This document shows, piece by piece, positions 2,742 to 60,159 of a stretch of 64,000 nucleotides of DNA (its first letter is position 1; every line of letters starts with the position of its first letter). A program made the position numbers and the translations under genes. Where the stretch lies: the NCBI GenBank assembly GCA_020002185.1, contig CM034539.1, positions 4,412,031-4,476,030 on the forward strand. Reading direction: 5' to 3'. This DNA is from Paraescarpia echinospica. Its lineage: Eukaryota > Annelida > Polychaeta > Sabellida > Siboglinidae. A model generated the notes under the pieces. It did not search any database. It was not told the DNA's origin and saw nothing but the letters and a program-made list of their open reading frames with translations.

Positions 2742-2750
2742 CTGAAACAT

Positions 2751-3397
2751 GCACACAATCACACTGTCTGACAGCAATACTAGAACACATTCACACTGTC
2801 TGACTGCAATACTAAAACACAATCACACTGTCTGAGTGCAATACTAGAAAACATTCACACTGTCTGACTGCAATACTAGAACACCTTCACACTGTCTGGC
2901 TGCAATACTAGAACACAATCTCACTGTCTGACAGCAATACTAGAGTAGAACACTTTCACACTGTCTGACTGCAATACTAGAACACAATCCATTTGTGGCT
3001 GCAATACTAGAACATAATCATTGTCTGACTGCAATACTAGAACACAACCACACTGTCAGATTGCAATACTAGAACACAATCACTGTCTGACTGCAATAGT
3101 AGAACACAATCACACTGTCTGACTGCAATACTAGAACACAATCATTGTCTGACTGCAATACTAGAACACAATCACACGGTCTGACAGCAATACTAGAACA
3201 TAATCACACTGTCTGGCTGCAATACTAGATCACAATCACACTGTCTGACTGCAATACTAGAACACAATCACACAGTATGGCTGCAATACTAGACACAATC
3301 ACTGTCTGACTGCAATACTAGAACACAATCACATGGTCTGACTGCAATAATAGAACACAATCACACGGTCTGACTGCAATACTAGGACACAATCACC
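2751..3397. repeat. ~32-bp minisatellite abutting an ERK 3' splice site
   Basis: About 20 copies of a unit near aatactagaacacaatcaca followed by ctgtctgactgc. The array begins within 10 bases of the acceptor of the exon 2660-2741. Read on the gene strand, each unit holds a pyrimidine-poor tattgcag that could mimic an acceptor, but it does not clearly copy exon sequence. Confidence 0.9.
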
Positions 3398-3460
3398 GTC
3401 TTATATTTAATTATACAATAGATTTGATCTATCTGATATGCAACCGAGTCAAAATACCTT

Positions 3461-5174
3461 CTAATTAATGATACAATAGAGTTGACCTACCTTCCCAATA
3501 ATGATACATTTGAGTTGACCTACCTTCCCAATAATGATACATTTGAGTTGACCTACCTTCTCATTAATGATACAATTGAGTTGCCCTAGCTTCTCATTAA
3601 TGATACAATTGAGTTGCCCTACCTTCTCATTAATGATACAATTGAGTTGCCCTAGCTTCTCATTAATGACACAACTGAGTTGCCCTACCTTCTCATTAAT
3701 GATACAATTGAGTTGCCCTACCTTCTCATTAATGATACAATTGAGTTGCCCTACCTTCTCATTAATGATACAATTGAGTTGCCCTAGCTTCTCATTAATG
3801 ATACAATTGAGTTGCCCTAGCTTCTCATTAATGACACAACTGAGTTGACCTACTTTCTCATTAATTATACAATTGAGTCGACCTACCTTATCATTAATGA
3901 TACAATTGAGTCGACCTACCTTCTCATTAATGATACAATTGAGTTGCACTACCTTCTCATTAATGATACAATTGAGTTGCCCTACCTTCTCATTAATGAC
4001 ACAACTGAGTTGACCTACCTTCTCATTAATGATACAATTGAGTTGCCCTACCTTCTCATTAATGATACAATTGAGTTGACCTACCTTCTCATTAATGATA
4101 CATTTGAGTTGACCTACCTTCTCATTAATGATACAATTGAGTTGCCCTACCTTCTCATTAATGATACAATTGAGTTGCCCTAGCTTCTCATTAATGACAC
4201 AACTGAGTTGCCCTACCTTCTCATTAATGATACAATTGAGTTGCCCTACCTTCTCATTAATGATACAATTGAGTTGCCCTAGCTTCTCATTAATGATACA
4301 ATTGAGTTGCCCTACCTTCTCATTAATGATACAATTGAGTTGCCCTAGCTTCTCATTAATGACACAACTGAGTTGACCTACCTTCTCATTAATGATACAA
4401 TTGGGGCAAACCTACCTTCTCATTAATGATACAATTGAGTTGCCCTACCTTCTCATTAATGATACAATTGAGTTGCCCTACCTTCTCATTAATGACACAA
4501 CTGAGTTGCCCTAGCTTCTCATTAATGACACAACTGAGTTGACCTACTTTCTCATTAATGATACAATTGAGTTGCCCTACCTTCTCATTAATGATACATT
4601 TGAGTTGACCTACCTTCTCATTAATGATACAATTGAGTTGCCCTAGCTTCTCATTAATGATACAATTGAGTTGCCCTAGCTTCTCATTAATGACACAACT
4701 GAGTTGACCTACTTTCTCATTAATGATACAATTGAGTCGACCTACCTTCTCATTAATGATACAATTGAGTCGACCTACCTTCTCATTAATGATACAATTG
4801 AGTTGCCCTACCTTCTCATTAATGATACAATTGAGTTGCCCTACCTTCTCATTAATGACACAACTGAGTTCACCTACCTTCTCATTAATGATACAATTGA
4901 GTTGCCCTACCTTCTCATTAATGATACAATTGAGTTGACCTACCTTCTCATTAATGATACATTTGAGTTGACCTACCTTCTCATTAATGATACAATTGAG
5001 TTGCCCTACCTTCTCATTAATGATACAATTGAGTTGCCCTACCTTTTCATTAATGACACAACTGAGTTGACCTACCTTCTCATTAATGATACAATTGAGT
5101 CGACCTACCTTCTCATTAATGATACAATTGAGTTGCCCTACCTTCTCATTAATGATACAATTGAGTTGACCTAC
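3461..5174. repeat. 33-bp array copying an ERK exon end plus its 5' splice site
   Basis: About 50 tandem 33-bp units. On the minus strand each encodes LNCIINEK followed by VGQ, LGQ or [11 protein letters not shown] is the last eight codons of the neighbouring ERK exon and VGQ is the translation of the donor gtagggcaa. The array starts exactly at the functional donor at 5174 and decays toward its far end (3461-3560). Units reading VGQ keep the GT of the donor; units reading LGQ have GCT and lose it. Because 33 is a multiple of 3, the frame stays open across long stretches (the reading frame entering from the exon runs to about 4389). Recurrent SCVINEK variants suggest higher-order duplication. 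Confidence 0.97.
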
Positions 5175-5254
5175 CTTCTCATTAATGATACAGTTAAGGT
5201 CCTCCTGTGTGGGGGACCCAAGTACTCCGAGGATGTGATTGAGTTGGTCCAGGT
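5175..5254 (-). CDS. ERK1/2 MAP kinase, seventh coding exon
   Basis: 80-bp exon, acceptor cctcag, donor AAG|gtaggt. It completes the Tyr codon split from the previous exon and reads [19 protein letters not shown] then NCIINEK, the start of the MAPK insert. Its last 24 coding bases and its donor are the source of the 33-bp array that fills the following intron. The exon-proximal donor at 5174 is taken as authentic because it joins in phase to ARGYLQ at 2741. Any of the downstream copies could in principle be used instead, which would add 11 residues per unit at this loop. Confidence 0.95.
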
Positions 5255-5814: not shown

Positions 5815-6616
5815 CATGGTCAAGGAGAGTCTCTGAACACTGTCACCAACTCGCACAAAACACACGTTGACACTGTCACCAACTCACAAAAACACATGTT
5901 GACACTGTCACCAACCCACATAAACACATGTCAACTGACACTATCACCAAATCACATAAACACATGTTGATATTGACACCCGCTCACATAAACACATGTT
6001 GACACTGTCACCAACTCAAATAAACACAGGTTGACAATGTCACCAACTCACATAAACACATGTTGACACTGACACCAACTCAAATAAACACATGCTGACA
6101 ATCATCAATAAGCACACTTGATACTGTCCATAGCTTCAATAAACACATTTTAACATTTTTACAAGCACCAGTACACATGCTGACACTGTCGCCAGCTCCA
6201 AACCTACAATAAATACATTATGACAATTTCACAAGCATCAATAAACACATATTGACAATACTGCCACCCACACCAATAAACACATGCTGACACTGCCACC
6301 CACACCAATAAACACGTGCTGACATTGCCACCCACACCAATAAACACATGCTGACACTGCCACCCACACCAATAAACACATGCTGACACTGCCACCCACA
6401 CCAATAAACACATGCTGACACTGCCACCCACACCAATAAACACATGCTGACACTGCCACTCACACCAATAAACACATGCTGACACTGCCACCCACACCAA
6501 TAAACACATGCTGACATTGCCACCCACACCAATAAACACATGCTGACACTGCCACCCACACCAATAAACACATGCTGACACCATCACCCACACCAATAAA
6601 CACATGTTGACACTGC
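5815..6616. repeat. 32-bp minisatellite next to the ERK subdomain IX acceptor
   Basis: Roughly 24 copies of a unit such as cacccacaccaataaacaca followed by tgctgacactgc. It is homogeneous at 6240-6600 (exact 32-bp spacing, 6361 and 6393) and more variable near the exon. Exon-proximal units contain cacacgttgacactgtcacc, close to the junction cacacgtcaactgtcacc at 5797-5814, so the array may have grown from the 3' splice site. All minus-strand frames are open here only because 32 is not a multiple of 3 and stops are lacking; they are not genes. Confidence 0.93.
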
Positions 6617-6636
6617 CACGGTGTCAGCACGACCTA

Positions 6637-7039: not shown

Positions 7040-8474
<1,435 letters not shown>

Positions 8475-9085: not shown

Positions 9086-11485
9086 AGAAATGAGCCAGAA
9101 TATTTACTTGTCCACCGGACAAGTAAGTTTTGAAATCTACTTGTCCGCCAAAATGTGAACTTGTTCGAGTGGTTGTCAAGGGGAATCAAAGCTTCGGAAA
9201 AAACTTTGTCTTATTTTTATGATAACAACACAATGTTCCTGCTGTTTCGTTGCATGTACATCTGAGTGACTTGTGATCAAAGACACAATTTGATTTCATC
9301 TGCAAATTTTTAAATTGCAAAATTATATTTGCAACTATTTTCCCGTCCATTACTGGAATATTGTAAGATGACCTGAAATACTGTCACCTGAAATGTGTAT
9401 CTACCGGGACATTTTGAACTGAGAAAAATGTGGTCCTGCATATAGGCATGCTTTACAGTGGCATAGAAAAAACAAACAATACGGTTGCAACTTCAGGCAA
9501 AGCCTTTTGAAATGTTGGTTCCCCCAACATCCCCATCCCACAAGGCCTCAGGGGTTTAGTCTGAGACCTGTCTGCCTGTCTTCAAGACTGGTATATGACT
9601 GGCCAAGGCGAATAATTACAAATGATAACACTGGTGGAATTTAGAGTGGGCCAGCTGGACACTAGATTAACTAATACTTCCTCCAAGTCTAGGGGCCCAC
9701 ATTAATGGGTATCACTGGCACAGCTGGTAGTGAAACAAATCAGTTGGGTCAATATTAATTAAATAAATGGCTCAAATGACACTGACTTGTCATTAAAAAA
9801 GCTAAACTGGCCATTGATGGCTGTGATTGACTTCCCGAAGCCACTCATGTGCTAAAAGGCACACATTTGTCTCATTCAAGATTGGCAAAAAATTATTTCT
9901 GGCTAAGGGGGTCACCTGGGTGAAATATAGTCTCAATTTAGGAACCACCCTAATGGACCAGTTAATATTGGCCAGTTAATATTCTTGCAAAACATCAGCC
10001 TCATACTAATACATGCAAAACAAACAGAGATCAAATGTGGGCATCATAAAAACAAACAGACACAGTCCCACACTAAGATTTTAGACTATAGATTGGACAA
10101 AGATTGGGGGTTCAGGGGGTGGGGTGTGAACTGTTTTGTCTTACACCTACATGACAGGTCCATTATTATTCATCATGAATATTAAAAGTAGACACATTAC
10201 ATGATGTATAACAATATTTTAGTCATGCTGATATGAACGCTTTTATTAATAACAAATAATTATTACGATGATAGGAATGTGACAATTATTTTCCTTGCTA
10301 TTTGTTTTATAATGTTGCAAAAACTGTTTATGTTTAATATGGTATATATATAACATATAACACTGCTGTAAAATGTTGCCATCAGTTTGTTATTGAACAT
10401 GCCACTCAACCAAGAACACGACCAATGCAAAGACAGGAAATGTTGTCACAAAAATCATAATAAACTATACAATCTGATATTAGTTTGTTCAACCTCTATG
10501 AACTTCAATATTAACATAGTTCTGTATTTTACAAATGAAGATAATATTCAACTGATCATCAGCAAACAAACGCATATTTTACCTAAATGTTATATTACCA
10601 TTTCAATGATGATAAAACAGTTTTAACAGTGCCCGAATTACATTTACCAGGCGGAATACAATTCATAGATTTAGTTACGTTGTAACGTTGCTGCTGCACG
10701 CAGACCACTGTAGTTGGCGGAAGCCAACATGTCAACGGCGGTTGGCGCCTCGTCCCCGGCCACACATCTTGCCTAATTCGGTTTTGAAAACTTGCAATTT
10801 ATGGTTAAAATAAATGTTACATAGATACAACACTTCTGAAATTTCATTAATATTCCGTTTATCAACCAGCACCATAGATTTACCGGAGCCAGAACTTTAC
10901 AAGTTTTGAAAAATGTCACCAATCTGGATCGGCTAACGTTCGATGACTTGGAAGACTGCCGAGTCTGCATGGGTTAGGCGTAATAATGGTTAAAACTATA
11001 TAATTATTCAAATAACAGGTAAAGATTCAAAGTCTACTATTTCCAAAGTTCATCAAATATGATCCGTGAGTGGAAGCAAGTTGTACGTCGGCCAAACTGA
11101 ATGATTTATGATTGTGTGAAATACAGCATCGATCAACGATGGCTGATGCGGAGTCTGTCCTACGCGTATGACAGAGCTAGGTCGGTGTGCTCAGCGGATG
11201 ACCCTGTTAACGCAGGCAGTAAACTCGGTCAAACACTGACGAACAACACACTGGCGGCAGAACGACGACATACTAACAAAATTGGAACGCGCAAGATTGC
11301 TAGCGAACTTAATTTACGTTTGAATTTCCTCAAATAAAAGTTTGCAATGTTGCACGCGTCACTATTTACTATATAAATTTTCACTTGTCCACCGGATAAC
11401 CATGTAGAGTCATTTTACTTGTCCCGGCCAAAAATCACTTGTCCCGGACAAACGGACAAGTGCTATTTCGAACTCTGCAGCTTCA
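9086..11485. mobile_element. hAT-like non-autonomous insertion inside a minisatellite
   Basis: Both edges carry repeated acttgtcc/ggacaag motifs (9107-9170 on the left, 11383-11461 on the right), the style of hAT subterminal repeats. The right edge, read inward, starts cagagttcgaaatagcac. It is flanked on both sides by the same cttcaagactgac minisatellite family, as expected for an insertion that split it. No transposase was found inside. It contains an ~810-bp segment also present at 12670-13476. Exact ends and target duplication are not resolved. Confidence 0.5.
9352..10163. repeat. ~810-bp interspersed duplicate, copy 1
   Basis: Nearly identical, in the same orientation, to 12669-13476 for its whole length, starting near ggaatattgtaagatgacct and ending at cacctacatgacaggt. 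Differences are scattered single bases and small indels. No open frame was seen. It could be a SINE- or MITE-like family member or a local segmental duplication. Confidence 0.85.
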
Positions 11486-12554: not shown

Positions 12555-12584
12555 CTGAAACAGTTCACAGAACAATGTGAAGCA

Positions 12585-12700
12585 TTGTGATAAGATGACC
12601 TGAAATATTGCGATAGGATGGCCAGGAACATTGTGATAAGATGACCTGAAACATGCGATATTATGACCTGGAATATTGTAAGACGACCTGAAATACTCAG
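12585..12700. repeat. Short ~26-bp tandem repeat beside the ERK exon 2 acceptor
   Basis: Four to five imperfect units like cattgtgataagatgacctg. On the gene strand each has a tttcaggtcat segment resembling an acceptor. The last unit merges into the 810-bp duplicate. Confidence 0.6.
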
Positions 12701-13476
12701 TCACCTGAAATGTGTATCTACCAGGACATTTTGAACTGGGAAAAATGTGGTCCTGCATATAGGCATGCTTTATAGTGGCATAGAAAAAACAAACAATACG
12801 GTTGCAACTTCAGGCAAAGCCTTTTGAAATGTTGGTTCCCCCAACATCCCTATCCCACAAGGCAATAGGGGTTTAGTCTGAGACCTGTCTGCCTGTCTTC
12901 AAGACTGGTAGATGACTGGCCAAGGCGAGTAATTACAAATGATAACACTGGTGGAATTTAGAGTGGGCCAGCTGGACACTAGATTAACTAATACTTCCTC
13001 CAAGTCTAGGGGCCCACATTAATGGGTATCACTGGCACAGCTGGTAGTGAAACAAATCAGTTGGGTCAGTATTAATTAAATAAATGGCTCAAATGACACT
13101 GGCTTGTCATTGAAAAAGCTAAACTGGCCATTGATGGCTGTGATTGACTTCCCGAAGCCACTCATGTGCTAAAAGGCACACATTTGTGTCATTCAAGATT
13201 GGCAAAACATTATTTCTGGCTAAGGGGGTCACCTGGGTGAAATATAAAGTCTCAATTTAGGAACCACCCTAATGGACCGGTTAATATTGGCCAGTTAATA
13301 TTTTTACAAAACATCAGCCTCATACTAATACATGCAAAACAAACAGAGATCAAATGTGGGCATCATAAAAACAAACAGACACAGTCCCACACTACGATTT
13401 TAGATATAGATTGGACAAAGATTGAGGGTTCAGGTGTGGGGTGTGAACTGTTTTGTCTTACACCTACATGACAGGT
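12669..13476. repeat. ~810-bp interspersed duplicate, copy 2
   Basis: Partner of 9352-10163. Here it abuts the short tandem repeat upstream of the exon 2 acceptor. Homology stops at acaggt on the right in both copies, after which the two flanks differ, which marks an element or duplication edge. Confidence 0.85.
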
Positions 13477-15840
13477 GAATGAGCAGTGTTGTTCCCTGTA
13501 ATCCTTCCCCTGGCTCTAGCCACACACCTGGCCTGCCTTCCACACTCATTAATCCCTCATTGCCCTCCTTTCTCTGACAGTGGGAGGCACACCTCCCTCC
13601 CCTCTCTCCTTCACCTCAGTCTGCAGTTCACATGAAAACAGCTGTCAACAGCCCTTCCTCAGTGAGGGATGAAACCACCACTGCTGTAGGGAATCAGGCC
13701 CTCACCGAGTCACCCGTCATGTGGACGGGTAATATTCAAAAATTGCGTTTTTGGACGGTTTCAAATTGATTGTGGATGGGTCCGTCCATGTCTTTTTTTG
13801 CGTGAGTCTGCCCGTCCATGCCATTTTTACGACATCATTGATACTGCTGCGAAGCCAGTTACAAAATCTATGAAGACTGGTTTTGAAAATCGCCTACCCG
13901 GATCACCTGGCCTGCTCCCCGACACACGCCAGAAACCAATTAAGCCAGGCCTCCACATGCTAGGATAATTGTCACCTACTCGCCAGCGGCGTCTTGCTAG
14001 GATAATTGTTACCTACCCGCTAGGTTTATTGGCGATATTTTGAAACAAACATGATTACTATGCAACGGTATTCGTTTATTTTTGTGAATTTGTGACGATT
14101 TTTCAAACGCGCATGGCAAATCGTTACGAGTGTAATGGCACCGGTGCTACCAGTTGAATTATTTCAAATGTCCACGTCAATATATCAACAAAATACATGA
14201 TAGTATTAGTGGATCAAGTTATTATACTAGTTCAGACAGTTACAGACTTTGGGGGCTGTTTTGAAGTGGATATTATGCAAGTTGCTGGCGAGTAGTCACC
14301 GGACATCGCTGTCTTGCACCCAGACTTGGGCCGATTTGGCCGGTCTACTCGGTCCGCCAGCGAAGGATACGATGCATTCAGAGTTCAAATACAACATGTT
14401 GACCTGATGACATATATGTGTGTAATTAGGAACTATAGGTATTACTTACTTTATTGATATGTAAGGAAATTGATAATAGACATGTCATGTTATCGGACAG
14501 GTGCGCCATGGCGCGCAACGATAGGCCTACGAGGTCTATTGCCGTATTAGTTGTATTTGAATGTTCTACGAAAAATACAATAAAATGAAAAGTTCTGAAT
14601 ATATTTGAGTCAAGTTTTCATTATCATGCATCTGAAATGTATAGCTACATTTGCCACACTGCATGCATGAACATACAACCGCTCAATAATTATTTTGTCA
14701 CTGGGCAAACTTGGGTTTCTACTTTACCCTCGTTCTGACGTTCATGAAGAATAGTAATAAATTTTACATGGGTCTACCTAAAAAATCATATAAATAAAAC
14801 TTCTGAGTATATTTGATTAATTTTTTCTGTACTCATTAGCTTATATACATGGCTACATTTCTCTAATTGGACATTGACACATACAACCACTCGGAAATTA
14901 GCTACTAGTAGGGTGACACAAATAGTTTGTTGCATTTATTTTACATAAATTTTAAACAGTTATATCTTCAAGATTATTTGATATTATGCAAATATTATCA
15001 TTGCATAATAATAAAGGGTCTTTTTGCCAACAAAATGATAGCTCAATCATATTTTTGCGATACGTATTAGTGAAGTTGTGATTTTTTAAAAGCACCCCTA
15101 CAAATAGCTCCAAATTGTGTACACCGGGGAAGTTTACTATTACCTGTAGGGTTAAAATGAAACAGCATCAGTGATTAGAACATTCATAATTCTTAATATG
15201 ATTGCTTGTGTAAATTACATTTGTTAACATATATATATATATATATTAAGCACTGCTGCATGAGAAACAACCAGACATTTATGTTATTGTGTTACAGGAA
15301 TTATTTTATTATCTAAATTTATTATGTACGGTTGTTATTGTGTTATAAATATTTCACAAATAAATGTTGTTAGAAAAGTTAACATCACAGTAAAACAGTA
15401 TTATTTAGATGCAGAGATCATAACATTATGATATTGTAGATATTTCACAGAATGTATTATTTTTCAAAGTTAACTTTGAAATAAAATGTTACTTTTCTGA
15501 ACAGAAATGTACTTCTGTTTTCACTTTTAAACAGAAAATGCATCATTTGACACGAAAATTGCTACTTACATTTCTGATCACACGAGATGTGCATTCAGCC
15601 ATGTTCTCTGCCTTGCCTTCATAAATGGTAATAGTGCTTTTAGTTTATTTTTATATTTTATGATTGGACACACTAAGTATGATCACCAAAATTTACCATG
15701 CTAGTGTGTATATATATATATATATATACACACTCATAGATGCATATGTCCTATCGCGCATCCGATCGCGCGTTTGATCGCGTGCCCGACCGCACTGTGT
15801 AGCATGTCGGAAAAAATTTGGACTGACAAAAATCTGATCC
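13477..15840. other. ERK intron 1, unassigned sequence
   Basis: No gene or clear element. At 13710-13820 several ccgtccat/gacggg motifs of both orientations sit close together and may be subterminal repeats of an unrecognised transposon. Simple TA runs occur at 15226-15247. At 15700-15733 a TA run is bracketed by gtgtgta and tacacac, making a perfect palindrome. Confidence 0.5.
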
Positions 15841-20478: not shown

Positions 20479-20879
20479 ATGCATCGTTATTTAACTGGGG
20501 TTGCAAAACCAGAAGTTAAACGCAAGGTGGAAAAGCGAGAACGGGACACGCTGTACGACCAGCAGAAACGACAGCGTGGCTATTAGAAGGTTTGGGAACG
20601 AGACCACACTTGGCTGTCCTACGATGACAACAACGATTTGATGTTTTGCAAAGTGTGCAGGACACACAACGTAACTGGTGTCCGTGGCAAGAATGCGTTC
20701 TTGACTGGCACGGACAACTTTCGTCCAGACTCGCTACGCGCACACAGTACAAGCGAGGCGCACACACGAGCTGTCTTCCGGCAAACTGCGTTCGAAGCCC
20801 GTCCCGGCACTGCACCTGCCCACCGAGCCATCCAAGCGCTGAACACGGCCACCATGGACCGTCTGACGCATTTGTTTAG
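20479..20879 (+). pseudogene. hAT transposase, first exon (zinc finger), one in-frame stop
   Basis: From ATG at 20479 the frame is open except for a TAG at 20584, then reads MFCKVCRTHNV, KNAFLTGTDNFR and LRAHSTSEAH. Cys-x2-Cys followed by His-x5-His is the N-terminal zinc finger found on hAT-family proteins of the ZNF862/KIAA1586 type. The exon ends TTTAG|gtaatt and joins in phase to the exon at 21359, giving F-R-T-C-H. The stop makes this copy non-functional unless read through. Confidence 0.8.
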
Positions 20880-21358
20880 GTAATTATGTTACCCATGTGA
20901 TATAATGTTATAAAATGTAAAAAAATATTGTGTTTGATTGTACTTTGTTAGGGTTAGCACTATATGGTTTAAATTATTATCCCTCATTTCTCTGTTATCT
21001 CTCATTTCAAGCGTGCCGTGCAGTAAACAATGCCATGGGAAATTATTAATTTGCATTTGATGTAGATCTGTGTTATAACTTGCCTGGATCTTCGGGTTCA
21101 AAAGTAATACTATTTAGTGTTGTATTTCCCGCCTTTATGCATCATATTTTTGGTTTTGAGAACGTGGCTTGTCTTGTGATTTTTGTGCTTTTATTAAAAT
21201 TTAAACCTGCCCATCTTCAAATCTTCGTCAAGTTTTGTTTTGAAAGCGAGGATGTTTTTAGTATTCACTGTTTGCTGAGGAAGGTTGTTATGTTGTGACT
21301 ATACTCAGTATTTACTTAATACTATGATATTTAATATTTCCTGCATTGGATGTTTCAG

Positions 21359-23060
21359 GACTTGTCACGCGATAGCAAAGCACCGGCGTCCGTTCACAGA
21401 TTATGTGTGGCAGTGTACCCTGGACGCACAGAAGGGCCTTGATGTGGGGAACACTTATCGGAATGACAAGGCATGCAAGCAGTTCGTGCGTGCCATCGCT
21501 GAGGTTGAGCGCCGTCACCTCGCACAGCACCTGGAGAGTGCTCACTTTCTCGCCCTCATCAGTGACGGTACGACAGATGCGTCCATCACGGAAGCGGAGA
21601 TAGTGTACGTGAGGTATGCGTGAATGGTCGTCTCTACTGCCTTCGCTGGTATTGAGAACGTCGGCAAGGCAGATGCTCCGTCAATCAAGCGGGCAATTGA
21701 CGGTGTCGTGGAGCGCTACCTCCACATCCCGAAAGAGACACTCATGAAGAAGCTTGTCGGATTCGGCAGTGATGGCGCCGCTGTTATGACCGGATCAGCC
21801 AACGGTGTCGCCACGCTCTTCCGAAATGAGCAGCCGTGTCTGCAAGCAATCCACTGCTATGCGCATCGCCTGGAACTTGCATATAAGGACGCATTGTGTC
21901 GGTTGCCCATGTACACAAAGTTGAGCGGTCTCCTCCTGAGCCTCTACTTGTTCTACCATCACTCGCCACTGAACCGTAGCAACTTGAAGGCAGCATTCGA
22001 CACATTGTCTCTGCCATGTGCCCTTCCACCACGTGTCGGTGGCACTCGCTGGTTGCCACATCTGCTGAAGGCACTGCAGGCCCTTGTGAAGGGATATCCA
22101 GCATATGTCCTGCATCTGACGCAGATGCAAGTGCCCGGGGGCTCCGGAGATGCCAAGGCAAAGGCCATTGGCTTCTTGGCGACACTGCACCGACGAGACA
22201 TCATCGAGATGGCACACTTCCTTCTCGATGTGCTGTTTGTTCTGAGCAAGCTGTCGCTGGTGGCTCAGACAGTGACTGCGACAGTTGCTGATGTACATGC
22301 CACGCTGACATCCGTTGTGGCCACCCTTGTGATGTACAAGACGACCACAACTGCCAAGGAGCGTGCCCTGGCGCGCATGGAAGACTTCCATGGTGAGACA
22401 CTCACAGGTGCTGTCTTCGCCAAGCAGACCCGACTGCAGATCTTGGGCAACCTGGTCAGCTGTCTGGAGGGTCGCTTCGTTGACAGCAATTCGGACGTTG
22501 TGCGTGCATCATCAATCGTTAGCTTCAAGCTGTGGCCTGAAGCTGCAGGTGACTATGGAAATGACGCTGTGGCCACACTCAACAACCATTTTGGCCCTGT
22601 GCTTCGCGACGCTGGCATCGATACTGCTAGTGTGGAGACGGAGTGGACACTTCTGAAGATGATCCTGTATGAACAGTCCCCAGACGTGCGACAGCTGACA
22701 TGGTCTAGTGTCAATGCAGCCCACCAGGCAGAGTATGGAAACATACTTGGGCTTGTTGACGCCATTCTGACTCTGCCAGCCAGCTCGGCTGATGCGGAGA
22801 GAGGCTTCAGTCAGCTGAAGCTGACGAAGAGCAGCATCCGGTCAGTCCTGAAGGCAGATCGACTGACTGATCTGTTGACCATTCAGCTGAGTTCACCAGA
22901 CATCACTGCATTTGAACCGAAGGAGGCAATCGAGCTGTGGAGTGCTGGTGGAGCCCGGAGGCCAGACACTCAGCCGCTTAGGCCAAGGCCCGACTGTAGT
23001 AGTTACACTGACAGCAGTGACACCGACTGTGATGTCAGTAGTGCCTCCGACTCTGAGTGA
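21359..23060 (+). pseudogene. hAT transposase, main exon with catalytic core and dimerisation region
   Basis: Acceptor tttcag at 21353-21358. The frame includes LISDGTTDASITE, then an in-frame TGA at 21621, then 478 open codons. Recognisable are GFGSDGAAVMTG and CYAHRLELA of the RNase H-like core, and near the C-terminus LPASSADAERGFSQLK, the hAT C-terminal dimerisation motif, with an acidic Ser/Asp tail. Only the two stops (20584, 21621) break an otherwise intact coding region, so the insertion is fairly young. It lies in ERK intron 1. Confidence 0.88.
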
Positions 23061-33399: not shown

Positions 33400-36170
33400 A
33401 GCCCTTCTGAGGTATGTGTCGATTTTATTTTTAAACATATTCACACTACTAGCACTCACACAATCATCAGATAATCTGTTCCATTAATTCACAGTCCTTT
33501 GTGAAAATTAGAACTTTCTCACGTCTAATCTACACTGCTCCTTTACTAATGTAACTTCATGTCCTCTAGTCTTTCTATCTTTCTTAACTGAAAAAAAAAT
33601 ATTTCTATCAATATTTTCATAACCATTCAATATTTTAAACACTTCTATCTGATCTCCTCTCAATCTCCTGGTCTCTAGTGTTGTTAAACCACATTCTTTT
33701 AGGCATTTTTCATAACTAAGATCCCTCAGTTTTGGTATCATTTTAGTCGCTCTCCTCTGTACTCTTTCTAGCATATCTATGTCCTTCTTGCGGTATGGCC
33801 TCCACGCTTGTATACAATATTCTAAATGAGGCCTAACTATTGTTTTGTACAGCGGTATTATTAGTTCTTTTTCTTTATATGCTATATTTCGCCTAATCAA
33901 TCCAAGGATTTGATTTCCCTTTGAAGCTGCAATTCCACACTGCTCTGAAACCTTCATGTCAGCACTAATTGTCAGCCCTAAGTCTTTTTCTTTTACAGTA
34001 GTACTTAGTACAGTTCCCCCCATTGTATATTCTACATATTCGTTCCCATGTCCTGTGTGAAGGCATTTACATTTCCCAAAATTGAACAACATTTGCCACT
34101 TTTCAGACCATTTGATCAACCTGTCAAGATCATCTTGTAAATGCTGTCTATCCCCATCACTTTTAATCTTTCTAAATACTTTTGTATCATCTGCAAATTT
34201 CAACACCTTGCTAGCTATATCATCGTCCAAATCGTTTATATATATTAAGAATTATATTGGTCCCAGTACTGATCCCTGTGGAACCCCTCAAAACTGATTT
34301 CCAGTTTGAAGCCTCCCCATCAACAACTACCCGTTGTCTTCTGTCAATCAGCCATTTTTCTATCCAGTTAATTATACCATTTCCTATGCCATGGGCCTTT
34401 AGTTTAAGCAGTAATCTCTGATGTGGCACTTTATCGAAAGCTTTTTGAAAATCTAAGTAGATGATATCTACTGGTGATCCATCATCTACCCACTTAGTGA
34501 TATCTTCCAAAAAACATAACATATTTGTTAAGCATGACCTCGTTTTTAGAAACCCATGTTGAGATGGGTTTATCAAGTTATGTTTAACAAGAAAATCCAC
34601 CATGTGATCTTTAATTAGTCTTTCTAATAATTTACAAATCACCGATGTTAAACTAACTGGTCTATAATTATTTGACTTGTTTCTCGAACCTTTTTTAAAT
34701 AACGGTATAATGTTTGCTTCTTTCCATTCTAAAGGAACCACTCCCTCTTCTAATGACAAGTTGAAAACTGTTGCAAGCGGTATGCTAATTTGTTCTACAA
34801 TATCCAATAGTAGTTTGGGTGAAATACCATCCACTCCAGGTGATTTATTTTCCTTCATAGCCCTAATTTTCTTAGCTACCATTTCTGGGGTTACAATTAA
34901 CTGTCTTAAATAGTCTGAATCTTTCCCCTTGAACTTAGCTTCTGGTACTGGCAGTGAACTAGAGTCTTCTCTGGTAAACACTGAACTAAAATAATTATTT
35001 AGGTCTTCTGCCATTAAGAATCCTTCTGATATTATATTTCCAGCACTATCTTCTAGAGGACCGACCTTATCCTGAACTTTCTGTTTGCTTCGAACATACG
35101 CATAAAAACTCTTGCTGTCATGTTTTATATTACAAGCTAATTTATGTTCATAGCTTCTCTTTGAATTTCTAATTTCAGCTGTAGCTTGGTTTAGTGCTTC
35201 TTTATAAATGTTGTAGTCTTCGTCATTTCCAGTATGTCTATAATATGACTTCCACATCATTTGTTTATACTTAATTTTCTAATGGCTTCTTTCGATAAGT
35301 ATTTCTTTCTGGTCCGTTTACCTTGTTTTTTGAAGGGAACAAATTTATCTACGATGCACTCTATTTCATTCTTTAAGATATTCCAGCATTCTGTTGCTGT
35401 CTTATTCTTCAGTGTATTATTCCAGTCTATCTTTGCTAAATATTTCCTCATTTCCTTATATCTTCCTTTGTGGAAATTTCTCCTGAACTGCTTTTTATTA
35501 TTTCTTTCTGATTTTACTTTGATGGTAAAATGTATCTGGTTGTGATCACTACTTCCCAGAAGCTCACATAATTTAACATTGTCAACTAATTCATTCTGTG
35601 AGGACAAAACTAAGTCTAACACATTCTCTCCCCTGGTTGGTTCTAGCACATGTTGAGAAAGGAAACTATCTTGTACTAAAACTAAAAACTTGTGGTCCTC
35701 ACTACCCATACTCTGTAGAGATGTCCATTTTATATGCCCATGGTTAAAATCCCCCATAATAACACAGTCCCGTTTGCTCACTTCCCTTATAGCGTTTTGT
35801 ATTTTTTCATTCTCTTCTATGCTTATGTTTGGACTTCGATAAACTAATCCAACCGTTAACGTTGAGTTTCCTGTAACTATGTTACACCAAACAGCTTCTT
35901 CGCAATCTGCTTCTCTTTCTAATTTTATTTCATAAGCCTGGATAGATTCTTTAATATATAAAATAACTCCACCTCCCTTTCTTCCTATTCTATCTTTCCT
36001 AAACATTACATATCCTGTCAGTCCAAATTCGGCATCTGATATATCGGTGGTTCCATGATTCGGTTATACCTATTATGTGAGGGTCAATATCTTCTACCAT
36101 AATGTTTAGTTCATTTCTTTTGTTTACTATACTCCTTGCATTTAAAACAAACACATTTATAACTGGGGAA
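33400..36170 (-). pseudogene. CR1-like LINE ORF2: endonuclease and reverse transcriptase
   Basis: The endonuclease begins near 36165 (VINVFVLNARSIVNKRNEL), has a frameshift near 36030, and shows MGDFNHGHIKW and LLGSSDHNQIHF, the catalytic D/N/H residues. The reverse transcriptase shows NKSPGVDGISPKLL, NNYRPVSLTS, IYLDFQKAFDKV and KFADDTKVF. A frame break and a TAA near 34250 interrupt the usual VPQGSVLGP block. The tail includes YCIQAWRPYRKKDIDMLE and ETRRLRGDQIEVFK. It copies LINE RNA into the genome when intact; this copy is dead but recent. Confidence 0.9.
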
Positions 36171-37950: not shown

Positions 37951-38863
37951 TTGTAAACAACGTTCCGATTACATTAACGTCCCCAATTATCGCTCGCAAA
38001 TCGCCTACTTTTAATCTACCCTAGATTACTCCCTCTAGCTAACTTTTAACAAAAAATATTGCTTAATATATATATATAATTACGTTATGTATGCTATACG
38101 CTCAATAATATCACTTATCTTGATCAAATATCCTTATATTTTCGGAAGTTTGCTGCACCAAATTCAAAACAATTCACCACCGGAAGTCCCCCAGGACATA
38201 AATAAGCGTAAAGAAGGCTAACAAAAAAAGAGGAGGTAACGACGTATCAGAAATAGGCGTTAGATACGTCACAGGTAATTTGCGTTAAGAACACTGTGTA
38301 ATTACCCATATGAAGTAAGTGCCTAGTCGTATAAATCGAACGAAACAAAGCAAAGAGAGAAAGAGATATCTATATACTGTATGAAAGTACTTACATTTAT
38401 GCAACGCATGCATCACGAAGGCACCATTGTGCAAGAAGTTCGTTCCAAGGTAGTGTCGACATATTTGTAGATATGAAGGGAATGATTTGAATGTAACAAA
38501 CGAGAGATATATACAGGATAAATGATATGCAGACACATTGTATGGAAAGTTTTAAAGTACAAACGTATATCAGCAAGGAGAGTCGTATGACGTAGGGACC
38601 AGCTGGCAATGAGCGCGTACCCTAACCCGCGCGTGTGATGTGCGAAGGGCAGCTATCAGCAAGACAACAATGCATGAATGTACCTTATCGGAACACATAT
38701 TATAGAGGCGAGGACAGACAGACAGCAACATGTAGACGATAAGAACTCTGTGTGTGAGCTCGCGCGCGCGTCAGTGCTAACGGTGTCAACATATCTAGTA
38801 CGACATAACATTCTCTGTGATTCTCTGCCGATCGAACACCTTCACCCCTGAACGAGCGACAAG
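37951..38863. other. Polinton left arm upstream of the plus-strand genes
   Basis: No confident gene. On the minus strand a short frame with MSTLPWNELLAQWCLRDA ends just before a gtaagtac donor-like site near 38396. An alternating gcgcgcgc run lies at 38761-38770. Sequence just before 38864 may hold the promoter of the first plus-strand gene. Confidence 0.4.
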
Positions 38864-39316
38864 ATGGCGGCTGCTAACTACGAGTCAAGCCCCGAGGAAA
38901 TCGACTTGACAGGACTCGAAAAAGTAAGTGATGGATCTTACGCATTTGATCGCCCACTCACACTCGTAACATGCGCTCTGTTATCTAAATACGTATGTTA
39001 TTGAGCGTGTCGCCTCTGTAACCGCAAAGTTCTCATCGAAGTGAAAGCAAATCATATCGTCAGTGCATGCCCGGTCCACGGGCGACAGAAGGGTGGCTCT
39101 GTATACAAATACGCTATGGGCATCTTGTTGGCCGATCGTAAAGGCTCTGAGCTGTGGGCGACAAGGTTCGACCATGTAGTCCAGCGGGTCTTAGGGGGGC
39201 TGTCAGCAAGCGACTATATGTCGCTGAAAACCGACGAAGATCGCTACCAGACATTGAGTATCTTACATGGCAAACAGGTTAGGGTGACAATTAGAAAGTC
39301 AACAAAAGCAAGCTAG
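38864..39316 (+). pseudogene. RPA-like single-stranded-DNA-binding protein, one in-frame stop
   Basis: ATG at 38864 (MAAANYESSPEEIDLTGLEK) opens a 150-codon frame broken only by TGA at 39002. Around the stop is a zinc ribbon, CRLC then CPVHG, followed by YKYAMGILLADRKGSELWA, TRFDHVVQRVLG and LHGKQVRVTIRK. A zinc ribbon inserted in an OB-fold with LxxADxxG...F and a final beta strand is the pattern of the replication protein A large-subunit C-terminal domain. The size equals one such domain. It is the first plus-strand Polinton gene, before the polymerase, so a role in coating displaced strands during protein-primed replication is a reasonable inference. RPA homology is by pattern and should be tested. 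Confidence 0.6.
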
Positions 39317-39392
39317 TGAACTACGCCGTGACGGCACTGGAAATCATTCAACCGTAAGTCCTGTCTGTCTGCCAACAAGGTGGCGCTATGGT

Positions 39393-40234
39393 ATGTGTAT
39401 TGTCACCGGAAGTGATGCCTGGTTGAATGATACACAGGACGCGACGGGGCAGTCTACACCGTCTCGCGAAGGCTCCCAATGCGTAAAACGCCGTCTGAGT
39501 TACTCGGATATCACCGACGACGACGAGGCAAGTGTGCTTGTGTATGGGTCATGTACGTGGTCTAGCGGTGATGATGATGATGATGATATCAAAGAGGACC
39601 GTAGTGATTTACGGGAGGCGGTAGCGAAGGTGAACGCTATTCAAAAGCACACGGAGAAAATGATAGACGACGATATCTTTATCACTACTGTAACCAACGC
39701 CTGCGTGCGCTACGCATCCAACGGACTGTGGTGCCGGCATGCAGGCGTTCACGAGGCACTGTACGGGGTGGATCGGTCAAGGATTTATAATAGTCTCCGT
39801 ATGGCAGTGACTGTGCATCGCATACGCCGGGTTGGGCTGTTGATACTATACCACGGGTGAAAGAGAGTCTGCGTACTCGAGGTATATCCCTGCTGAATGA
39901 CCCGGAGGACGGGGACGGGGCCGTGACGTCGGTGAGAGGTATACAACAAGAACAGCTCACGGAGGGAATGATGGACTGGGAGTTCCTTCACACAACCGCA
40001 GTCAACGCCTGTGTTCGTTTCGTGGCCAACGAACTGTGGCGCACGTTTGAAGACGAAGAAAACGGCCTGTCCAAGGTGGGCTTTCATTTGATATACGACA
40101 ATGTGAAGTGGACAATGGCCCATTACAGATTTACAGTGGATACACCGGAGTGGACACGTGACACTATAGCACGTGTGCAAGCCATCCTGCATATGCGTGA
40201 TAGAGCACTGCTGGACGAAAATGAATATAACTAA
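39393..40234 (+). pseudogene. Unrecognised Polinton protein with a tandemly duplicated ~80-residue domain
   Basis: Two overlapping frames (39393-39860 and 39857-40234). The first reads TTVTNACVRYASNGLW and SRIYNSLRMAV; the second reads TTAVNACVRFVANELW, LIYDNVKW and TPEWTRDTIARVQAIL. Just before the second domain, in its frame, is TPGWAVDTIPRVKESL, the missing end of the first domain. So the two frames are one protein with two copies of a domain, split by a single frameshift near 39820. A poly-Asp stretch lies before the first copy. I do not recognise the domain. Confidence 0.6.
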
Positions 40235-40285
40235 ACAAAATAAAGTGACACACCTTGAAATGTTGTCATTGTGTTTGACAGGACG

Positions 40286-40891
40286 ATGATGCTGCCTACT
40301 GGGCTAGGACATATACGGGACGCCTATACGGAGAAGGAGTTGACGGGGGCACCACGGAAAAAGGTTCCGCGACGATCCCGTGTCGACGTGCCATTACGTC
40401 GCGCTCTCCTTATCCACCTGCATGAACAGCAGCAGCGATATACGGCATCTCCGCCATCATCATCATCATCGTCACGTCCGCACACGAGTGCACCACCACT
40501 GGACATGTCGTGTGACGATGTCCCGCCACCACCACCAGTATCCGACACACCCCTCCAGATGATATGTGACGACGACGATGATGACGTCAGCGCCCCGGTA
40601 TCGGAATACACAGCCCTCCGGAACGACAAGTCGACGCTCGATCTAGGCCCCGACGGACATATCATCTGGTCTAAATTGTATAATTCTATGTCTTTGGGGT
40701 ATGCAGCACTGTTCGAAGGTGTACGTAACATAGAGCGAGAAATAGAACGCTTAGCCGGTGTCGTATTTGTGACTAGAGCATGTACTCTAAAAGACTCTGT
40801 ACGCCTTATCTGTCAGGAACTGGCGCGAAATATAATCCGCGACGAACACGGTGATTACGTGACCGAGACACTCCGTAGCCATCTGCAATAG
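40286..40891 (+). CDS. Hypothetical Polinton protein, low-complexity middle
   Basis: About 201 codons from ATG at 40286. N-terminal part is basic (RKKVPRRSRVDVPLRRALL), then Ser, Pro and Asp runs, then a predicted-helical C-terminal ~80 residues with LKDSVRLICQELARNIIRD. That last motif faintly resembles VNACVRFVANELW of the gene before it, so it may be a third, diverged member of the same family. A tttgacag acceptor-like site precedes it. Function unknown. Confidence 0.5.
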   Translation: MMLPTGLGHIRDAYTEKELTGAPRKKVPRRSRVDVPLRRALLIHLHEQQQRYTASPPSSSSSSRPHTSAPPLDMSCDDVPPPPPVSDTPLQMICDDDDDDVSAPVSEYTALRNDKSTLDLGPDGHIIWSKLYNSMSLGYAALFEGVRNIEREIERLAGVVFVTRACTLKDSVRLICQELARNIIRDEHGDYVTETLRSHLQ

Positions 40892-40933
40892 CCTGTTGTG
40901 TTTGATGATATGTAACAAAGGTATATTACGGCA

Positions 40934-40997
40934 GTGACGCAAAGAGGAAATGCGCCCCTACATCAGTTGGGGTGAGAGGCGCCTCTATGTGTCACAC
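40934..40997. promoter_or_regulatory. Conserved hairpin element, copy 1
   Basis: Downstream of the gene ending at 40891. The core gaggaaatgcgcccctacat then cagttggggtgagaggcg closes on a perfect palindrome agaggcgcctct, with outer arms gtgac and gtcac. A second copy sits at 45697-45757. Position after gene blocks suggests an RNA 3'-end or boundary element. Confidence 0.6.
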
Positions 40998-41383
40998 AGA
41001 GCCACACCTATAACAGTATATTAGTTGCATATTATCAGTAATGAGGTAGTATTGGTCGATTTCATTATTGTAATTGCTAGTAAAATAATAAAGGTACATG
41101 TAATTCCGGGTTCCGGCGTCTGTTGTTCTTTCACGTTGACGAGTGACTTTGCAGTATATCACATACAAGGTATCGGTGTATACGTAGCCACGCCCCTTCT
41201 GTTCACACGCTGACATCTATCTGACACCTCTACCCAATGATGCATTAATCGCATTAAACGTAGCCACGCCCCACCTCTGTCCACACGCCTATATGACGTC
41301 ACGTAGTGTATGATATATGGAAACATGCAAGGATCACGCATCCTTCAGTTGTAGGTAGATACAGCACGACGAAGCAACGCTCA

Positions 41384-44300
41384 TGCCGCCACTGTGGAAT
41401 CGTCCACGATACATACGACGACTTACAACGTCACATAGTCCTGACTCATTCATAACCGTCGATCCAGTCACCACACGTTGACGACCATGCCTACAGCAAA
41501 CCACCGTCGCGAGTGGCGCCATCTGTCGAAACACCGAAAAGCACTAAGCACCGCTGTCCGACATGTGGAAGAGACTTCACGAGACGATATCACCTGGTAC
41601 GTCACATTAGGAGGTCATGCGGCAGGCTTCCCTCACAGAAAACCGATACGCACCGCTGTGAGACTTGTGCACGTGAGTTCACGAGACTTGACAACTTGTT
41701 ACGTCATATCAAGACGGTATGTAGCAGACGTGAAGAGGTTATCGACCCACCCATACCCAAGCGAACGAGACACGGAGAGCGGCCACGTGTGAGCAACGAC
41801 GTCGACGACGATCCAATACGTCCTCCGCCACAACTCCTCTTCGCCGACACTCTATCGAGGGAGCTGCGAGACGTCGTTCGAGACCACTGGTCGGCTATCC
41901 GAACCCACATGACCAGAGGACCTGTTCAATCCAGGTACAATTACAGAGTGTCGACGCCGGACACATCTGTTCTAGAACCGACACTGAAAAGCATGTTCCG
42001 CGAAAAGACGCACGCGTTCAAGATGAACCTTAGGTACGGGTGCGTGCTGAGGAACAAGAACACTAACCGATGCAGATACTACCATTCTTCCTGCAACTGT
42101 TGTGGTCGTTACCTTGATGAACCGTATCTTATTACCAACACCGAAAACTTTGATGCATTTCTGGAGCGTATCCGAGAAACAGACGTGAAATTGAGACGTC
42201 TCCACCTCCGATAGGAGGTGGGAACGTCTCACTTTCGAAGTACATCAAAAGAAACAAAGCCGTCATCGGATTGGAAAGAGAACGCAATTATAACAAGAAG
42301 TATACCGACAATGTGTGTCTCTTCCGCTGTCTGCCCCTGCATCATGGGAGTGACCTACACTGCTTGGAACCCGTGTGAAGGTACTCTACGAGAAGTACGA
42401 CCAAGACGGAGTGCCTATGAAAGACTTTGACGGGGTTACGATGGACGACCTCTATCGCGTCGAGATCACCTTTGTGCGCATACACACTCGTCGAACCGGA
42501 GGAAGAAGAAGAAGAAGGTGGAAAGGCGACTGCCGAACTCGTGCGCCGTTCGTTGTGTCACTATTCCAACACGTTGTATGTCAATCTCCACGTGACACAC
42601 TTTTCCTACATACAAGACGTGAACATGTACTGTCACTCTTATCGATGTAGGAAGTGAGGCGACTCGTTATGAAAATACGCATCCAAACTAGAGACACGAG
42701 CGCACGTGTATGGGAGGCGTGCGAAATATCTATCCCGGGGGCGTCTACCATCGGAAACCAACGTGACAGAAACATTCGTGTTCCCGAGTGGTTGCGCTAC
42801 TATCCCTATCGCGCCACCTTTGACATCGAGTCCTGGTTTGATACGTCACAGCTTCCATTGGACAGCACCAAGGTCCATTGGCTGGCTCGTCACGTACCGT
42901 TGAGTGTCTCTGGAGAGTAACGTACCCGGATTTGAACAAGTGCAATGTCTCATCACGGACGGCGATAGCAACAAGTTGGTATCCGACATGATGTCCATCC
43001 TTCAGTCTATGAACGATGCTACCTACGAAGCCATCGTAGACCAATACGAGAGCGTGCTTCACCAACTCGCGGAGGCGATCGTGACATGGGACGAACAGGA
43101 GGCACACGCTGAAAGGGGGACAATCGGCGACAACTGACTAATCCTACAAAACACTCATGGGTCAATTGTACAGTTCGCTTCATCAGTTGCTTCATCATCG
43201 GATTCAGGTCAGGTACGATCTGAACGTCGTCAAACAGTTCCTGGTACCCTACTTCCTGTCCACGAAAGAAATAGAGGATGAAAAAGAAGAAGAAGACGAA
43301 GACAAGGAGGAGGATGCCGGAGCATTTCGTGTGAACAACCGTGGCAACACGTTTATGTGTCTATCGATGGATGGCCTGAAATTCCTCGACATGACTCATA
43401 ATATCGCCCCGGGATTCTCGTACGATAAGTATCTGAAAGCGTACGGTTGCGAGGTCACGAAAGGACACTTCCCGTACGAATACATAGACAGCTTGGAGAG
43501 ACTCGACGATACCGCTCTACCTCTCAAAGAGGCCTTCTTAAGTCGCCTGAAGAACAAGGTATATCCGACGACGACTACACCCGTTTTCGGGAGGTGAGGC
43601 GAGACAACGACATGACGACGTTGCAGGACTTTCACGTCTGGTACAACAACAGGGACGTCGTACCGTTCTTGACGCCATCGCCAAACAGTTTGCCTTCTAC
43701 CAACAACGCGGTCTCGACATGTTCAAATAAGCCATCAGTATACCCGGTTTGACCTTGATCTACCTGTTCAACTACGTACCGGAGAAGACCTTCTTTACGC
43801 TCTTGAACGAGACGAACAAGGATGTCCATCAGCTGGTCAGAGAGAACATCGTCGGAGGGCCGTCACTCATCTTCACCACACATCACGAGAAGGGAGTCAC
43901 GAAGATACGTCGGAACGACTACGGTGATGCGGCTCGAACGTGTCAGTCCATAGTTGGCTATGATGCAAACGCACTCTACCTGTGGTCGTTATCGCAAGAC
44001 ATGCCGACGGGATGGTACACGCGACGACGGGAAGAGAAGAAGTTCCAACCCGAAGCGGCACAGCCCACAGGTGACGTTGGAGTCCGAAAGCACGGGACGC
44101 GCCATATGTCACCAGTCCAACGGACGAGAGAAGCGAATCGGTAAACTGCTGGTGGACGGTTGGTGCAGCGAAACGAAGACGGCCTATCAGTTTCACGGAT
44201 GCTTCTACAACGGCTGTCCTTGCACCGGTCGTGAGGTCAACGGGAAACCCATGACGGAACTGCGCCGAAACGCGAAAGAACATGGCCTACCTTCGTCACT

Positions 44301-45679
44301 TTATGAGAGTCGTAGAGTTGTGGGAATGCGAGTGGAAGATCACGAGATGCGATCAGTGCATGAAACTGTTTCTGGACATCACCTTTCGCTGCCGCTGCGT
44401 GCGCTGGAAAATGACGTCACAACAGATCCTGACAGGTGTACGCAACGGTACCGTTTTCGGAATGATTCAGTGCGACATACGTGTACCGGAGGAACTGCGC
44501 GCGCACTTTGCCTAGATGCAGCCCATCTTCAAGAACATTCACCTGAGCCGCGATGACCTCGGACCGTTCATGCGTCGCTACGCCGAAGAACACGACATCA
44601 TGGCAACCACGCGTCGCATGCTCGTCGGGAGTTATCTTGGGGATAACATCTTGCTGGCGACACCTCTCTTGCGATGGTACCTGGAACACGGACTCGAGGT
44701 GACGCAAGTCTACCAGGTCATCGAGTACACACCGGTCGCCTGCTTCTGTGTCTATTCGGCGAGGAGGTGTCCACTGCACGTCGCGAGGAGGACGTCCACC
44801 CCAACAAGGCCATGATCGCGGACACCAAACTTATGGGGAATTCTTCCTATGGGAAATGTATCACCAACGTCGATAGGCACCGCGAAGTCACCTACTGCAC
44901 GGAGAAGAGGGCGTCGATCGTGATCAACGATCGCCGCTTTCGACAACTCGACGTCGTCACCGACGATGCGTACAAGATTGAAATGCACAAGCGCAGCGTC
45001 AAATACGCCTTGCCCACGCACGTGGGATTCTTTGTTTTGCAGTGGGCCAAACTGCGCCTGTTGGAGTTCTACTACGATTTCATGGTCAGGTACGTGGAAC
45101 GTCCGCTGTTCGAGTACTGCGAAACCGATACGGACAGCGCCTATTTAGCTCTGGCCGGAGAGTCCGTCGACGGCCTCGTGACCCCGACACTGCGCGAACA
45201 CTACTTTCGTCACCGCTCCGAATGGCTATCGTCCGAATGTTGCGCCGATCATCAGAGCGAGTACGTGCGCTGTCGACTGGGCAGACGTCTGTGGAGCGGC
45301 ACCGAGACGTGTTGCAAGGCGCGCAAGGCGTACGACAAGAAAACACCGGGACTTTTCAAGGACGAATGGTCCGGCGAATGTTTCCTGGGTTTGTGCAGCA
45401 AGACCTACTATTGTTCGGGTTCTATCGACAGATACAGCACCAAGGGACTGAACAAACGACTCAACACCATCGATAAGCAGGCGTTCCTGGACGTGCAGAC
45501 CAATCGCAAGAGCGGAAGCTGAAAGAATCGCGGGTTCAGAGTGAATCACTCGTCCGTGCTGACGTACATCCAGGAACGTGCGGCGTTGACATACTTCTAT
45601 GCCAAGCGTGTGGTCCACGAGGACGGAGTCACAACGGGTCCGGTGGACGTGCAACGACGACGATCGATTGCCGTGTAAG
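41384..45679 (+). pseudogene. Protein-primed DNA polymerase B (Polinton pPolB), many frameshifts
   Basis: N-terminal C2H2 fingers: CRHCGIVHDTYDDLQRH (41384, cut off by TAA at 41453), then CPTCGRDFTRRYHLVRH and CETCAREFTRLDNLLRH in the frame from about 41470. LRYGCVLRNKNTNRCRYY follows. Exonuclease motif I is FDIESW (Asp at 42822), motif II YDLNVVKQ (43214). Polymerase motif A is YDANALYLWS (about 43960), motif B KLMGNSSYGK (about 44828), motif C DTDS (45127-45138). All catalytic motifs survive, but the reading frame changes about ten times (for example near 42214, 42490, 42650, 42905, 43600, 43740, 44090, 44280, 44515, 44760, 45520). It would replicate the element from a terminal protein. This copy cannot make a full protein. 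Confidence 0.93.
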
Positions 45680-45696
45680 TCTATGCCGAACCACAG

Positions 45697-45757
45697 CTGA
45701 CACAATGAGGAAATGCACCTCTACGTCAGTTGGGGTTAGAGGCGCCTCTAGCTGTCA
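45697..45757. promoter_or_regulatory. Conserved hairpin element, copy 2
   Basis: Just after the polymerase gene. gaggaaatgcacctctacgt then cagttggggttagaggcgcc; inner stem cctcta/tagagg, palindrome agaggcgcctct, outer arms tgaca/tgtca. It shares about 85 percent of bases with 40943-40986 and keeps the pairing where bases differ in the outer arm. Confidence 0.6.
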
Positions 45758-45830
45758 CGTGGTTAGTAGGCAGAAAGTAGACACATAAAAAGATAACACT
45801 ATGTCACGCAATCGATAGTCATAGTGCACC

Positions 45831-46010
45831 ATGTCACGGACGCGAGCAGTCGTAGGAGTTGCACTAGTAGGAACAGTCGGAGTGTACCTGTACGTCTTGT
45901 ACGTGTTGTTGTACGTTCCCTTCCTTCGCTCCTCGTGTGGTGGAGGTATCATCGTATCTAACGCCACAGTGGACAACGCGACATTGTCGAACGTGACCAC
46001 CACCTACTAG
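45831..46010 (+). CDS. Small single-span membrane protein of the Polinton
   Basis: 59 codons, ATG at 45831, stop at 46008, intact. A short basic start (MSRTR) is followed by about 25 hydrophobic residues (VVGVALVGTVGVYLYVLYVL) and a Cys/Gly turn, then a C-terminal tail with three N-x-T sequons (NAT, NAT, NVT). Such a layout suggests a membrane protein with a glycosylated outer tail. It starts 150 bases after the polymerase and ends 13 bases before the ATPase start. I do not know a named family for it. Confidence 0.55.
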   Translation: MSRTRAVVGVALVGTVGVYLYVLYVLLYVPFLRSSCGGGIIVSNATVDNATLSNVTTTY

Positions 46011-46023
46011 AACACGCGCAATC

Positions 46024-46817: not shown

Positions 46818-46857
<40 letters not shown>

Positions 46858-60125: not shown

Positions 60126-60159
60126 TTAATTAAGTTGCATATGCGTATTCTGCACACAA

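Follow-up and report, generated by a model that had tools for sequence, protein, structure and literature searches.

Why should the end of an ERK exon, together with its 5′ splice site, stand dozens of times in the intron that follows it? The 64-kb stretch of DNA analysed here (the window) carries a minus-strand ERK (MAPK1-type) gene, eight exons of which were placed by reading frame and homology. Over its aligned parts, the joined protein is 90% identical to the ERK of Capitella, 90% to that of thrips and 92% to that of Haliotis. One intron of this gene holds a 33-bp tandem array at positions 3455–5192, for which TRF gives 52.6 copies and 92% matches.

The unit consists of the 24 final coding bases of the ERK exon at 5175–5254 (minus strand) and nine bases of its donor. 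The final 24 bases of that exon (5175–5198) form copy 0 of the array, which reads, on the minus strand, exon end CTTAACTGTATCATTAATGAGAAG and donor GTAGGTCAA, where the exon ends at 5175 and the G of the donor is at 5174. Beyond it lie 52 intronic copies, head to tail (3449–5165, minus strand), each made of 24 exon-derived and 9 donor-derived bases. The total including the authentic junction is 53, with a spacing of 33 bases in 51 steps and of 34 in one, near 4406. An earlier note on this DNA had proposed about 50 copies of a unit composed of exon end and donor, starting at the real donor, and both TRF and the alignment of copies confirm this. As the same note had it, most copies keep the donor GT (43 of 53; the remaining 10 have CT), and the copies with the residues LGQ are among those without it, three of them in the part of the array that has an open frame.

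The intron that holds the array (2742–5174, minus strand) is 2433 bp long, and 97% of it is made up of two arrays, with a remainder of 69 bp. The second of these has a 32-bp unit and lies at 2753–3396 (minus strand); 11 bp separate it from the acceptor of the following exon. We saw no exon sequence in this 32-bp array, and a probe across the adjoining acceptor gave no extra copy. Residues identical or similar to LNCIINEK, which the 24 exon bases encode, occupy the equivalent place in nine aligned ERK orthologues. As these residues are normal for ERK, the 33-bp copies originate from the exon, and the intron is their recipient. Unlinked copies had been named in advance as evidence against an exon origin; at up to 8 mismatches, we found no further 33-bp unit elsewhere in the 64-kb window. 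Within the window, the unit is thus not one sequence spread across many unrelated introns, as an introner would be.

A decay of the copies away from the exon, which the earlier note had also described, is absent. Over the 52 intronic units, divergence does not follow unit number (Spearman 0.11, P = 0.44), nor does it when the last three units are left out (−0.07, P = 0.65). Those three distal units are diverged, with 4, 4 and 7 mismatches to the consensus, and the others have 0–4. The array contains 16 unit types among 49 units, with variants interspersed, and units 26 apart have a similarity of 0.974, above that at any lag in 500 shuffles (maximum 0.967), so blocks of many 33-bp units have probably been duplicated. 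Spread by replication slippage or by recombination, as had been suggested, fits this block similarity. The exon copy differs from the intronic consensus at three bases, which is expected if copy 0 lies outside the homogenisation of the array. Donor position +1 is among the most variable sites of the unit (80% consensus), and the nine intronic bases vary more than the 24 exon-derived bases (mean consensus 0.91 versus 0.97).

Although only this array had been described before, further splice-site arrays are present in the ERK gene and in a kinesin gene of the window. The ERK exon at 8274–8463 (minus strand) ends with the residues NTTCDLK and the donor GTAGGG, and its bases 8274–8321 are copy 0 of a second array, at 7118–8273 (minus strand), which holds 15 further copies of these 48 exon bases and 9 donor bases, with a unit of 75 bp. 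Thirteen copies are near-identical to the exon copy (52–57 of 57 bases, or 54–55 of 55 where the match ends at base 55), three of them being identical to it over 57 bases, and they mostly alternate with an 18-base spacer, GACCTTACT-GTAGGGGGT. Beyond them, extending to 7118, come an 18-base piece and two copies that are degraded, matching at 42 of 57 and at 43 of 56 bases. A ranking of all 15 copies again shows no fall of identity with distance (Spearman 0.06, P = 0.83), with only the two most distal copies being poor. The D-L-K codons GACCTCAAG occur twice in this exon, 39 bases apart; the second occurrence ends exactly at the donor, and the 48 copied exon bases start exactly at the first. A match at 7066–7094 (score 15) was not counted as an extra copy, as shuffled sequence reached a score of 17.

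The kinesin gene lies on the plus strand; its best solved relative is KIF22, and its third exon matches the Pfam kinesin motor domain. An array on the acceptor side (61104–61571, plus strand) has a 38-bp unit that contains a polypyrimidine stretch as well as AG and 14 bases of the exon start, ATTTGAGCAGGTCT. It has about 12 intronic copies, with a diverged thirteenth at 61056, and the authentic acceptor is at 61558; the AG is kept in 11 of the 14 matches listed, a count that includes the authentic site and the diverged first match. A donor-side array with a 65-bp unit (56379–57640, plus strand) begins at the 5′ splice site of kinesin exon 1, the last base of which is 56378; counting the authentic site, the scanned stretch has 18 occurrences of GTAAGT. 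However, it shares only about four exon bases (ATGA), in three intronic copies, and a 20-base probe across the junction found no extra copy; its standing as a boundary repeat is doubtful. A weak candidate for an acceptor-side boundary array fills the next ERK intron (5837–6619, minus strand), 29 bp from the acceptor, where copies of GGTGACAGTGTCAACRTGTG resemble the acceptor and exon start GGTGACAG/TTGACGTGTG and the 20-base probe found one extra copy.

The earlier note knew of no named class of intronic repeat built in this way, but one exists. ‘Mirages’ are described, in the available text of PMC3087553, as minisatellite-like tandem duplications of exon–intron boundaries in amphioxus, which involve donors or acceptors and have units of 10–160 bp. 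According to that text and the accessible part of PMC3902484, they have a homogenised core from which diverged boundary units are excluded, and many, though not all, copies carry splice signals. The splice-site arrays described above share these features. The unit spans the boundary at ERK 5175, ERK 8274 and kinesin 61558, with 24, 48 and 14 exon bases, respectively; units of 33, 75 and 38 bp (and of 65 bp in the doubtful case) lie at donors and at an acceptor; and splice signals persist in many but not all copies, as the counts of GT and AG given above attest. The absence of a gradient, the diverged last three units and the 16 types among 49 in the first ERK array, and the degraded ends of the second, agree with a homogenised core that leaves out the boundary units, the diverged distal units of both ERK arrays resembling the edges of mirage clusters as portrayed in the text available of PMC3087553. 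The likeness to the amphioxus mirages of Adh3, BflGb6, BflGb9, troponin C and PGBD5 therefore lies in boundary-spanning minisatellites with a homogenised core and diverged edge units. The ERK array is real and of a known kind, in a gene that does not resemble one from amphioxus.

The differences concern number and place. There are about 52 copies in ERK here, compared with 3 and 6 in BflGb6 and 2–7 in PGBD5, and the window has two clear cases in one gene, with one clear and one doubtful case in a second. Whereas the reported mirages are from amphioxus, the ERK of the window groups with Capitella (support 94/86, below the starred level), in a molluscan–annelid set and outside Branchiostoma, in a weak tree that has a single starred branch among 18. 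This suggests that mirages extend beyond the cephalochordates in which these papers describe them, to an animal that is probably a lophotrochozoan, where their copy number is high. In the literature searched on the word itself, the accessible texts use ‘mirage’ in the sense of a boundary repeat only in the amphioxus reports; elsewhere it denotes a transposon family, a cultivar or a cited title. Papers on conotoxin genes and on an earthworm metallothionein describe intronic repeats, with no boundary array in the parts available, the latter mentioning fourth-exon duplications of “unknown purpose”.

Two further systems are related. Human segmental duplications contain variable internal tandem repeats at exon–intron boundaries, which can alter splicing or form introns (available text of PMC2812944). 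Like the ERK array, these are minisatellites of roughly 30-bp units, but that text describes recent paralogues, about four repeats on average and transcript evidence, as opposed to dozens of repeats read here from DNA alone. In Rogers-type intron gain, as cited in the accessible parts of PMC3087553 and PMC2812944, AGGT is duplicated in tandem, and so, as here, a segment with a splice signal is involved. The copies here lengthen an intron whose position is also suggested by gene models of Branchiostoma: in two of these models V comes directly after CDLK, which would be expected if the intron there were older (models only).

Whether arrays favour splice junctions was assessed in two ways. At the 21 ERK and kinesin junctions that could be placed by homology, a 20-base probe across each (at most 3 mismatches) found intron-side copies at four: ERK 5175 (51 copies), ERK 8274 (14), kinesin 61558 (8) and ERK 5807 (1). 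The other 17 gave no further copy with this probe. The position test covered 13 intronic arrays in nine introns of the two genes. It left out the arrays at 64–2426 and 62804–63691 (one intron end outside the window or unannotated), TRF rows with about two copies or short units, and arrays outside ERK and kinesin. Eight of the 13 cross a junction or adjoin one within 30 bp, compared with 1.2 expected from random placement in introns, and none of 2 million draws reached even seven. Four arrays cross a junction (three without the doubtful kinesin donor array). If seeds could fall anywhere in the present introns, 0.37 crossings are expected (P = 0.0003 for four, 0.005 for three); under a null in which arrays are collapsed to single units and introns are short, 1.63 are expected (P = 0.04 and 0.20). 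Short ancestral introns are plausible, because the ERK intron at 2742–5174 has only its 69 bp when stripped of its two arrays, and we therefore make no claim that exon edges attract duplication. A preference of nucleation for exon edges was dropped as a firm claim, since the result depends on the null chosen; seeding at the exon edge, from which the earlier note had the process start, is only weakly favoured.

We consider it very probable that the ERK and kinesin arrays are mirages, that is, duplications straddling a boundary that were amplified by slippage or unequal exchange and are neutral. For the mutational steps, the neutrality and the use of the proximal site, we infer the following. 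A short tandem duplication would have happened to straddle a splice junction; in the CDLK array, misalignment between the two GACCTCAAG repeats may have set the unit. Replication slippage and unequal exchange would then have amplified the copies into the intron, while the array was homogenised internally. After a second copy had arisen on the intron side, extra copies would lengthen the intron and do nothing more; the exon-proximal junction, being part of the coding sequence, would remain under selection.

Alternatively, the 33-bp array could be partly coding, with distal donors used and ERK isoforms that contain runs of 11-residue repeats. The unit is stop-free in the frame of the exon, 24 successive copies (0–23) are open, and each INEK decoy, if used, would lengthen the protein by a multiple of 11 residues. 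However, the frame is lost at the 34-base step near 4406, directly after which there are stops, and the CDLK array loses its frame before its second intronic copy. The variant types include 5 of 19 possible synonymous, 10 of 76 non-synonymous and 1 of 4 stop changes, which indicates no strong coding constraint. Among 7,995 candidates scored against the array translation, with E values up to 1e-5, the only relatives found were a kinase fragment of 154 residues and an ERK in which a stretch is duplicated. A coding repeat was rejected on the lost frame and on variation that is not coding-like, and partial coding seems quite improbable.

It is very improbable that the arrays are a selected splicing device, in which decoy donors hold U1 or slow splicing and thereby regulate ERK. 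The dozens of decoy donors that the earlier note foresaw are borne out, and their strength is similar to that of the authentic site by a simple U1 pairing energy. Among the donor sites found, 18 of 52 decoys in the first array and 13 of 15 in the second equal or exceed the authentic donor on this measure, which thus does not separate authentic ERK donors from decoys. Against a selected device stand the variability of donor +1, the greater variation of the nine intronic bases than of the exon-derived part, and the occurrence of comparable arrays both at an acceptor and in a gene unrelated to ERK. The same variability bears on the earlier idea that tolerance of the arrays rests on a usable junction being kept in every copy, which is not supported: ten copies have lost the GT, and any kinesin donor decoy, if used, would by our reading of the sequence give HYE and a stop directly after the exon. 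If the first full CDLK decoy were used, 25 extra residues would appear directly in front of ICDFG. It is more likely that the arrays are tolerated because the exon-proximal copy is intact. The donor of this copy is the likeliest site of use, given that mirages in amphioxus genes reportedly leave splicing undisturbed. In the available text of PMC3087553, Adh3 data and globin RT–PCR suggest that mirages do not interfere with splicing, and the Adh and troponin C mirages are said to yield no aberrant mRNA (accessible part of PMC3902484). For the PGBD5 mirage, undisturbed splicing is the suggestion of the authors in the text available, with an extra exon predicted within the repeats.

An assembly artefact, in which reads were collapsed or haplotypes wrongly joined, is highly improbable. 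The similarity of units 26 apart could reflect two alleles placed in series, and an assembled copy number is never certain. But the interspersed variants, the 34-base step, the diverged end units and the presence of several arrays that differ in unit, one of which is degraded at its distal end, all speak against it; an artefact might alter the copy number but would hardly make several different arrays at splice sites. There is next to no chance of an unrelated satellite that resembles the exon by coincidence, for which we found nothing in a window otherwise rich in arrays, and which is already contradicted by a register that stops at the junction, by the match of 24 and 48 exon bases, by the lack of copies elsewhere in the window and by the conservation of the exon in orthologues.

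Mirage formation at the CDLK exon end may have recurred. In an annotated MAPK1 of Branchiostoma lanceolatum (P0084), the 15-residue stretch of the CDLK exon end stands at 148, 196 and 228, with SNPPTYCSTPPVI at 181 and 213. Together with its preceding residue, SNPPTYCSTPPVI is compatible with the +1 frame of the codons of the same peptide, which none of 20,000 random 14-residue stretches was. The exon end repeated in this gene model is that of the second ERK array of the window (gene model only). The B. floridae model (P0221) has no such repeat, and that of B. belcheri (P0156) has only intron-like residues after CDLK. P0127, by its label a protein from a marine microbial transcriptome, has a duplication that restarts at DLK; in other proteins with two copies of the motif (from plants, a rust fungus, an alga and nematodes), the copies are 36 to 380 residues apart, and P0121 and P0124 repeat whole kinase segments. 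We tentatively suggest that conserved D-L-K...D-L-K codons, the second ending at the donor, could have independently seeded splice-site minisatellites here and in amphioxus MAPK1, although we consider this doubtful. If true, the place where an intron grows again and again would be determined by a conserved protein motif. An annotated ERK of Dreissena polymorpha (P0001) also has a duplicated stretch (residues 249 and 302), possibly a duplicated exon.

What gives the find its value is its place, its copy number and the possibility that one ERK exon end has been affected repeatedly. Arrays can form nearly the whole of an intron, as in the 2433-bp ERK intron, and a route of intron growth is visible in progress. 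The series of near-identical donors and acceptors also constitutes a natural test of how the spliceosome chooses among many equal sites.

Other features of the window include three ERK introns on the minus strand with GTATCCTT donors, at 11978, 6674 and 5735 (acceptors 8463, 5807 and 5254), which are putative U12-type introns by their consensus. Branch-point-like GCCCTTGAC, CTCCTTGAC and GTCTTTAAT lie 9–12 bases from these acceptors; a loose branch-point search also matched the acceptor at 12034, the donor of which differs in type. In none of these three introns does an array clearly include a splice site. ERK intron 1 contains a hAT-type transposon remnant (20481–23060, plus strand; outer limits by eye), in which an open frame at 21624–23057 matches the hAT dimerisation domain. 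Retroelement frames at 34223–35260 and 59227–60126 (both minus strand) encode a reverse transcriptase domain and an endonuclease domain. The region at about 38000–50400 resembles a Polinton/Maverick-type element by reading only, the one open frame searched having no Pfam match, and similar CCAACGTT...CCATCT repeats are present near 31919 and 50500. A dispersed repeat, delimited by eye, occurs twice in ERK introns in the same orientation (9361–10160 and 12690–13480), and a 23-bp array at 12578–12695 adjoins its second copy.
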